From the NCBI GenBank assembly GCA_036569045.1, contig DATCRI010000084.1, positions 1-64,000 of the forward strand: a stretch of 64,000 bases of DNA, given 5' to 3'. Below are positions 21,016 through 22,169 of the stretch, in pieces. Within the stretch, counting starts at the first letter, position 1; each line of letters starts with the position of its first letter. Position numbers and translations under genes: made by a program. Source of the DNA: Chthoniobacterales bacterium. GTDB lineage: Bacteria; Verrucomicrobiota; Verrucomicrobiia; Chthoniobacterales; JAATET01. Under the pieces are notes generated by a model, which saw only the letters and a list, made by a program, of their open reading frames with translations, ran no database searches and was not told the origin of the DNA.

Positions 21016-21330
21016 TCACGTCGCGAGTTTCAGGCCGACGATTCCGCCGCCGATCGCCAGCAGGCAGGCTGCGCGGGCCAGCGTGAGCGCGTCGCCAAAG
21101 GCCACGACTCCCACGATTGCCGTGCCGATTGTGCCGATGCCGGCCCAGATCGCGTAGCTCGAACCAAGCGGCAGCGTCCGGACGGCCTGCGCAAGGAAGA
21201 CAACGCTCGCGACCATCGCCGCCAGCGTGAACGCCGTGGCCACGGGCCGCGTGAACCCGTGCGTGTATTTGAGCCCGATCGACCAGCCGATCTCGAGCAC
21301 TCCCGCAACGAACAGATAAAACCAAGCCAT
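21016..21330 (-). CDS. gdx: Guanidinium exporter Gdx (SugE-type small multidrug resistance protein)
   Basis: This small proton-coupled antiporter exports guanidinium. The protein has 104 residues with four helices. The first helix carries the essential Glu (AGVLEIGWSIGLKYTHGF, E13), and the G-x-W-S/A-x-G-L-K-Y-T-H-G-F segment is the Gdx/SugE signature rather than EmrE-like. Later conserved parts are LPLGSSYAIWAGIGTIGTAIVG and GGGIVGLKL. The start at 21330 matches family N-termini (MAWFYL); an in-frame ATG at 21336 would add two residues. The leader holds a guanidine-II riboswitch, which independently supports the substrate. Confidence 0.92.
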   Translation of the reverse strand: MAWFYLFVAGVLEIGWSIGLKYTHGFTRPVATAFTLAAMVASVVFLAQAVRTLPLGSSYAIWAGIGTIGTAIVGVVAFGDALTLARAACLLAIGGGIVGLKLAT

Positions 21331-21332
21331 AA

Positions 21333-21350
21333 CCATTTTCGAAAAAATGG
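21333..21350 (-). promoter_or_regulatory. Hairpin over the gdx start region, candidate expression platform
   Basis: On the coding strand the bases read CCATTTT, a TTCG loop, then AAAATGG: a perfect 7-bp stem with a stable tetraloop. Its 3' arm contains the alternative ATG at 21336 and ends 2 bases before the ATG at 21330. Its first two bases (21349-21350) are also the last two bases of the second riboswitch hairpin, so the two cannot both form fully. That it blocks translation when ligand is absent is an inference. Confidence 0.5.
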
Positions 21351-21392
21351 AGGCCGTCCCCCGTCTTCCAACTCTCTCCGGGGTCGTCCCCG
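21349..21392 (-). promoter_or_regulatory. Guanidine-II (mini-ykkC) riboswitch upstream of gdx
   Basis: Two short hairpins with ACGR tetraloops stand in tandem on the coding strand, as the guanidine-II class requires. Hairpin 1 (21392 to 21379) is a 5-bp C+4G/4C+G stem with loop ACGA. Hairpin 2 (21362 to 21349) is GGGGG-ACGG-CCTCC with one G-U pair. A linker of 16 bases separates them. The downstream gene encodes the guanidinium exporter, the commonest target of this riboswitch. Confidence 0.88.
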
Positions 21393-21423
21393 AAGCGTCA
21401 CCGCGAAATGCGGCGACGCGCAA

Positions 21424-21451
21424 AGTTTAACGCACGATCGCGGGATGGCAA
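21424..21451 (-). promoter_or_regulatory. Candidate sigma-70-type promoter of gdx
   Basis: On the coding strand TTGCCA (21451-21446) is followed after 16 bases by TAAACT (21429-21424). The match is 5/6 and 4/6 to the consensus. A transcript starting near 21416 would begin about 25 bases before the first riboswitch hairpin, which fits a leader of roughly 85 bases. Found by eye only. Confidence 0.4.
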
Positions 21452-21462
21452 CCCGCCCGAGA

Positions 21463-22062
21463 TCAATGATCCTTGGCTGCGATCGCCGACTGCGTCGTGA
21501 TGCGATCCGTCAGCGCCAGCAATAGAGCGGAGACCACGAAGGTGATATGGACAACGACCTGCCACAGAATCTGCATGTTCGCGTCCAGGCCGCCGGGGGT
21601 GGTTTTCAGAGAACCGATCTCGATGAACGTGCGGAGCAGATGGATCGAGGAAATCCCGATGAGCGCCGTGGCCAGCTTGACCTTCAGCGCGCCGGCATTC
21701 ACGTGCGACAGCCACTCCGGCTCGTCCGGATGCCCACGCAGGTTCAACCGCGAAACGAAGGTCTCGTAGCCACCGACGATGACCATCACCAGCAGGTTCG
21801 CAACCATCACCACATCGATCATGCCGAGAACGGCAATCATGATGTCCTGCTCGGTAAACTTCGCCAGCTCTCCAGTCAGCGGATCCAGCGTCGGATAAAA
21901 CAGCCCGTGGATGAGGTGGACGAGCTCCTTGAAAAATTGAACGACGTAGACAGCCTGGGCAACGATCAGGCCCAGATACAAAGGCGCCTGCAGCCAGCGG
22001 CTGAAAAAGATCAGGCTGCCGAGGCCGCGAAGATAGATGGGTTGGGAAGAGCGATCCGTCAT
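21463..22062 (-). CDS. UPF0114 (YqhA-like) inner-membrane protein
   Basis: The protein has 199 residues and three to four hydrophobic helices. The family pattern is clear: FFSRWLQAPLYLGLIVAQAVYVVQFFKEL at the N-terminus, then IAVLGMIDVVMVANLLVMVIVGGYETFVSRL, and VKLATALIGISSIHLLRTFI. Function is unknown; members are small integral membrane proteins. An alternative in-frame ATG at 22080 would add six residues; no Shine-Dalgarno sequence decides between them. It is followed on the same strand by gdx, but gdx has its own promoter and riboswitch. Confidence 0.87.
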   Translation of the reverse strand: MTDRSSQPIYLRGLGSLIFFSRWLQAPLYLGLIVAQAVYVVQFFKELVHLIHGLFYPTLDPLTGELAKFTEQDIMIAVLGMIDVVMVANLLVMVIVGGYETFVSRLNLRGHPDEPEWLSHVNAGALKVKLATALIGISSIHLLRTFIEIGSLKTTPGGLDANMQILWQVVVHITFVVSALLLALTDRITTQSAIAAKDH

Positions 22063-22169
22063 GAGATTTTGAAGGCGCATGGCGATACCACGGACCGCGA
22101 TTCCGCGCAACCGGAACGCGTTTTCCCCCTGTCCGTGCCGCGCGCTCTGTGTTTTACTCGCCGACCCTT

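Follow-up and report, generated by a model that had tools for sequence, protein, structure and literature searches.

For other members of the guanidine-II riboswitch class, the literature documents guanidine binding, a loop-loop complex between the two hairpins and extension of the linker that joins them, and in the bound form of the Gloeobacter violaceus riboswitch a 14-nt linker is stretched over ~49 Å (PMC5486947). In the same organism (a cyanobacterium, by description), Huang, Wang and Lilley (2017) pointed to a putative stem-loop that overlaps both the second hairpin, P2, and the ribosome-binding site, and that is mutually exclusive with the folded riboswitch (PMC5486947). In Pseudomonas aeruginosa, guanidine was shown to raise ribosome initiation in a manner dependent on a helix termed P0, in which bases of the linker and of the flanks are described as sequestering a Shine-Dalgarno sequence; a role for the 3' arm of P2 is not described in the text consulted (PMC9561414). 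Enterobacterial gdx/sugE leaders (L050-L065 and others in our set) carry AGGAG-type motifs in the spacer between P2 and the gene, and many of their linkers hold a complementary stretch.

Here we describe a leader from a Chthoniobacterales bacterium, located within a 64,000-nt stretch of DNA (the window). With the enterobacterial leaders it shares aptamer and exporter, whereas its spacer has neither an AGGAG-type motif nor a complement in the linker. With the P. aeruginosa system (PMC9561414) it shares two ACGR-loop hairpins, a predicted translational ON output and a linker helix that might close off the site of initiation, here called P0'. With G. violaceus it shares a P2-overlapping stem-loop predicted to exclude the folded riboswitch, but where the cyanobacterial stem-loop is described as targeting a ribosome-binding site, here it is the start-codon region that is predicted to be paired, in a leader lacking a Shine-Dalgarno sequence. 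The logic of the P2 overlap is therefore not new, having been proposed already for G. violaceus (PMC5486947); the new part would be a platform built on the start codon with no Shine-Dalgarno sequence, the evidence for switching being computational throughout. A search of the open literature, with subscription papers outside its reach, found no description of guanidine-II riboswitches in the window's class, and the locus extends guanidine-II to a lineage without a report in the searchable literature. As aptamer, gene and overlap logic were all known already, the finding is a modest one. Computation supplied the features on which the argument rests: aptamer, exporter, the bases shared between hairpins, the lack of a Shine-Dalgarno sequence, and the start region closed or open in prediction. 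Those with fixed coordinates, all on the minus strand, are as follows.

21424-21451, minus: sigma-70-like promoter, TTGCCA (21451-21446), 16 nt, TAAACT (21429-21424); a consensus match only.
21395-21419, minus: 10-bp hairpin GCGTCGCCGC-ATTTC-GCGGTGACGC, presumably where the transcript begins, from sequence and folding.
21376-21395, minus: first aptamer hairpin, P1, with 8 bp and the loop ACGA at 21387-21384 (RF01068).
21363-21375, minus: linker between P1 and P2, 13 nt, AGAGTTGGAAGAC.
21349-21362, minus: P2 of the aptamer, 5 bp, GGGGG-ACGG-CCTCC, -5.9 kcal/mol (RF01068 and folding).
21333-21350, minus: core of hairpin 3, CCAUUUU-UUCG-AAAAUGG, containing ATG1; -3.8 kcal/mol alone.
21325-21355, minus: full predicted OFF hairpin, hairpin 3 extended by GGCC (21355-21352) paired with GGCU (21328-21325); -8.3 kcal/mol.
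21016-21330, minus: gdx, SMR family guanidine exporter (PF00893), 104 aa from ATG2 (21330).

That this is a guanidine-II riboswitch upstream of a Gdx exporter gene is firmly supported as a class assignment from sequence. An earlier note, written from the letters alone, had called it so, and the Rfam covariance model bears the call out: RF01068 matches 21395-21349 on the minus strand over its full length (model positions 1-48) and scores 39 bits, where the gathering threshold is 32. Two ACGR-loop hairpins (ACGA and ACGG) are joined by a short linker, and the exporter gene starts 12 or 18 nt past P2. Both hairpins lie where the note had placed them, although its first hairpin was only the inner part of the 8-bp P1 (21395-21376), whose pair probabilities are mostly 0.8-1.0 and lower for the outermost pair. 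The match is the single copy in the 3.4-Mb assembly, and a search of the genome for a second guanidine-II or any guanidine-I riboswitch found none. The promoter-like pair that the note had seen at 21451-21424 is likewise present and is the sole match in 650 bp, with 0.1 expected from shuffled sequence. Just upstream of it, on the same strand, lies a UPF0114 family gene (21463-22110). The stable 10-bp hairpin with which the mRNA presumably begins abuts P1, shares C21395 with it and may protect the transcript.

Downstream of the riboswitch the gdx reading frame is complete, and its product has all of the Gdx marker residues E13, W16, S42, Y59 and W62 (numbered from the ATG at 21330). Roles of E13, W16, S42 and W62 in Gdx have been described (PMC7695847); W16 is conserved in Gdx and replaced by Gly or Ala in Qac, and so separates the two types (PMC7695847). 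The best NCBIfam model is SugE (PRK11431), whose equivalog cut-off of 126 bits is not reached by the 109.5 bits scored, and for this reason the product is not filed as a SugE equivalog, the Gdx residues notwithstanding. A second ATG in frame with gdx, ATG1 (21336-21334), precedes the family-typical ATG2 by two codons and would lengthen the protein to 106 aa. Alignment to the SugE model begins at residue 3 of this longer version and the related Gdx proteins compared start at the equivalent of ATG 21330; hairpin 3 accordingly covers an extra upstream ATG, with the typical start just beyond it, and ATG1 may not be the main start of gdx. Horizontal acquisition of the gene was considered, the closest matches being mostly alphaproteobacterial at 60-65%, and was set aside with the tree unresolved; the Gdx tree is weakly resolved and does not unite the window's protein with those of the two genera, g208 and g39, whose leaders are described below.

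Between P2 and the start, the spacer ATTTTTTCGAAAATGGTT holds no Shine-Dalgarno sequence, so that the leader does not belong with those that act by sequestering one. For comparison we assembled 25 leaders from the phylum, the window's included, in which gdx follows P2 by 11-31 nt, and 53 other gdx leaders, mainly from Proteobacteria. A Shine-Dalgarno-like motif occurs in 8 of the former and in 48 of the latter (Fisher p = 2e-7, kinship of the leaders ignored), and the scarcity is concentrated in the window's own class, where one of 17 guanidine-II/gdx leaders (L025) has such a motif, as against seven of the eight from other classes of the phylum. Gene starts more widely were assessed within the window, where 5 of 41 approximate starts have the motif, close to the internal-codon background of 6.7%. 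Some Verrucomicrobia have been listed as Shine-Dalgarno-scarce (PMC10783764), and translation in the window's class seems for the most part to start with no help from such sequences; the 16S tail was sought for its anti-Shine-Dalgarno sequence in the assembly, which contains no 16S gene.

What occupies the start region instead is, in prediction, secondary structure. The earlier note had described a 7-bp TTCG-capped hairpin at 21350-21333 with an in-frame ATG in its 3' arm and bases 21349-21350 in common with P2, and every part of this holds: hairpin 3 has seven Watson-Crick pairs and an exact TTCG loop, its outer two C's (C21350 and C21349) are those with which P2 ends, and ATG1 lies entirely within its 3' arm. 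Alone, it is weaker than P2 (-3.8 vs -5.9 kcal/mol), and folding suggests that it competes with P2 only as the tip of the longer hairpin 21355-21325. This OFF hairpin occupies four of the five bases of the P2 3' arm as well as the G of ATG2, and the predicted exclusion of P2 is therefore stronger than two common bases would imply.

RF01068 matches occur in 21 of 388 genomes of the phylum and 19 of 384 of the class (~5% of those sampled). Genus-mate genomes were found to hold neither the riboswitch nor a close gdx and so offer no close comparison. In the same order, three leaders from genus g208 (L027, L028 and L030) share the design. There the first four codons, start codon included, are predicted to pair with the P2 3' arm and the spacer (GCCCGG-A-UCAU...AUGA-A-CUGGG), CCCGG meeting CUGGG around a paired AUG, in the strongest P2-versus-start-codon hairpins predicted in the set. 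At -12.2 to -13.9 kcal/mol against -4.7 to -6.2 for P2, they leave the start paired at 0.95-1.0 and P2 at a probability of 0. The non-coding 5' arm GATCAT is constant among the g208 species, whose loops vary; against shuffled spacers L028 reaches p = 0.003, and L027 and L030 reach 0.12. These leaders come from one genus and show little covariation, and in the poorly resolved tree their Gdx proteins do not form the sister group of the one in the window. Genus g39 offers a second arrangement, in which a start-codon P0 helix encloses P2, again with no Shine-Dalgarno sequence: in L002, L011 and L023 the pairing CCAUUUU:AAAAUGG closes the start codon, but with CCAUUUU in the linker, and L014 keeps a shortened CCAUU:AAUGG.

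From this material we propose, at a probability of roughly 0.6, that through this guanidine-II riboswitch the ligand switches Gdx translation on, in an organism making little use of Shine-Dalgarno sequences, with the start region closed in the absence of guanidine and both closed forms lost on binding. Without ligand, hairpin 21355-21325 would borrow the P2 3' arm and cover ATG1 and part of ATG2, or else a linker:spacer helix would form around P2. Guanidine would bring the ACGR loops of P1 and P2 together, for which P2 would have to be fully formed and the linker drawn out; and as a paired linker could not span ~49 Å, docking should be incompatible with linker pairing. Docking would destroy both closed forms and give the 30S subunit access to both ATGs and to the U-rich spacer. 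Most likely the leader is a translational ON switch, its response to guanidine and the direction of that response being inferred. The note's own version, in which hairpin 2 competes with the start hairpin, is supported by folding and by the three g208 genomes, but needs amending in that hairpin 3 alone is the weaker partner, the OFF hairpin is larger, P0' would serve just as well to close the start, and the family-typical ATG is not the one that hairpin 3 covers.

Opening the start region 21333-21348 costs ~4-5 kcal/mol in the free ensemble, in either closed form, and 0.2-2.2 kcal/mol once P1 and P2 are formed with the linker unpaired; reaching that state itself costs ~4-6 kcal/mol, a sum that in the model would have to come from docking and the binding of the ligand. 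For the window leader alone the gain in accessibility (1.6 kcal/mol) lies within the shuffled range (p = 0.17). The measure detects platforms as a group, since leaders outside the phylum gain 3.1 kcal/mol against 0.8 when shuffled; inside the phylum the values are 2.1 and 0.7.

How the start is closed admits another answer, in which P0' around an intact P2 is the OFF element, much like P0 of P. aeruginosa, and hairpin 3 is a minor by-product. In this helix UUGGAAGA of the linker (21371-21364) pairs with UUUUUCGA of the spacer (21346-21339), and together with P2 it reaches -10.7 kcal/mol, the minimum free energy in several of the spans folded; on modelling it is an equally stable rival closed form. 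A P0 helix involving the linker is the tested model in P. aeruginosa (PMC9561414), and the g39 leaders place just such a linker pairing on the start codon. Yet P0' leaves both ATGs unpaired, and the balance between the two forms shifts with the length of coding sequence folded: in spans cut at 21318 or earlier P0' with P2 prevails and the probability of hairpin 3 is 0 to 0.31, whereas with ~30 coding bases included hairpin 3 rises to ~0.8 and P0' falls to ~0.1. Linker:start helices, moreover, are not significant across the phylum as a group (Fisher p = 0.15), and the case for them therefore rests on individual leaders (L018 at p = 0.045; L011 at p = 0.054, its pairing repeated in its genus; and L026 at p = 0.0025, where linker and bases just before the gdx ATG form an 8-bp helix, GCGUGCUU:AAGCACGU). 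We regard P0' as the sole OFF element as unlikely.

Less likely still, in our estimation, is that hairpin 3 is a fortuitous pairing and that the riboswitch acts only because an aptamer folding close to the start has some general influence on it. Such a view would account for the non-significant gain in the window leader, for the 7% of shuffled spacers that equal the energy of the whole OFF hairpin (a less exceptional structure than hairpin 3) and for the 24 of 78 leaders in which some fold joins the P2 arm to the start region. It sits poorly with the stronger version in g208 of the same order, and with the overlaps themselves: a hairpin of at least 7 bp overlapping both P2 and ATG1 arises in only 0.8% of shuffles of the 12-nt spacer (0.12% with random bases), and when every ATG in the window is considered, 0.4% fall within the 3' arm of some Watson-Crick hairpin of at least 7 bp. 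Chance is thus an unlikely source of the overlap, with odds that for a single instance are not overwhelming. Control at transcription, with P2 and the AUUUUUU after it as an intrinsic terminator, we consider very improbable indeed. A scan does mark the pair as terminator-like, and L005 too has a long, terminator-like U-run directly after P2, but the stem has only 5 bp including a G-U, terminator-like sites number 2 against 0.8 expected, the U-tract is absent from nearly all other leaders, and guanidine would then repress its own exporter, contrary to known members (PMC5486947, PMC12186494).

Beyond the single leader, a translational ON switch at the start codon invites a tentative generalisation, to which we give slightly under even odds: that guanidine-II riboswitches of this class have replaced Shine-Dalgarno sequestration by direct start-codon occlusion, and have done so by two routes or more, with a start hairpin that overlaps P2 (the window and g208) or a linker:start helix (g39). 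If true, a translational riboswitch class would have adapted its output to a host not reliant on Shine-Dalgarno pairing, the aptamer being kept and the platform rebuilt around the start codon.

Two leaders from Planctomycetota (L049 and L111) are predicted to pair the P2 3' arm with G-rich first codons of gdx, in hairpins of -13 and -18 kcal/mol that are possibly the same design in another phylum. Weak RF01068 matches in family f4 (L115-L119) and in L017, L019-L022 and L031 have no SMR gene nearby and were treated as chance. In one genome (G386; L019 and L022), several GGGGCGGGACGACC-type ACGR hairpins outside gdx contexts have the look of a guanidine-II mimic spread as an interspersed repeat.
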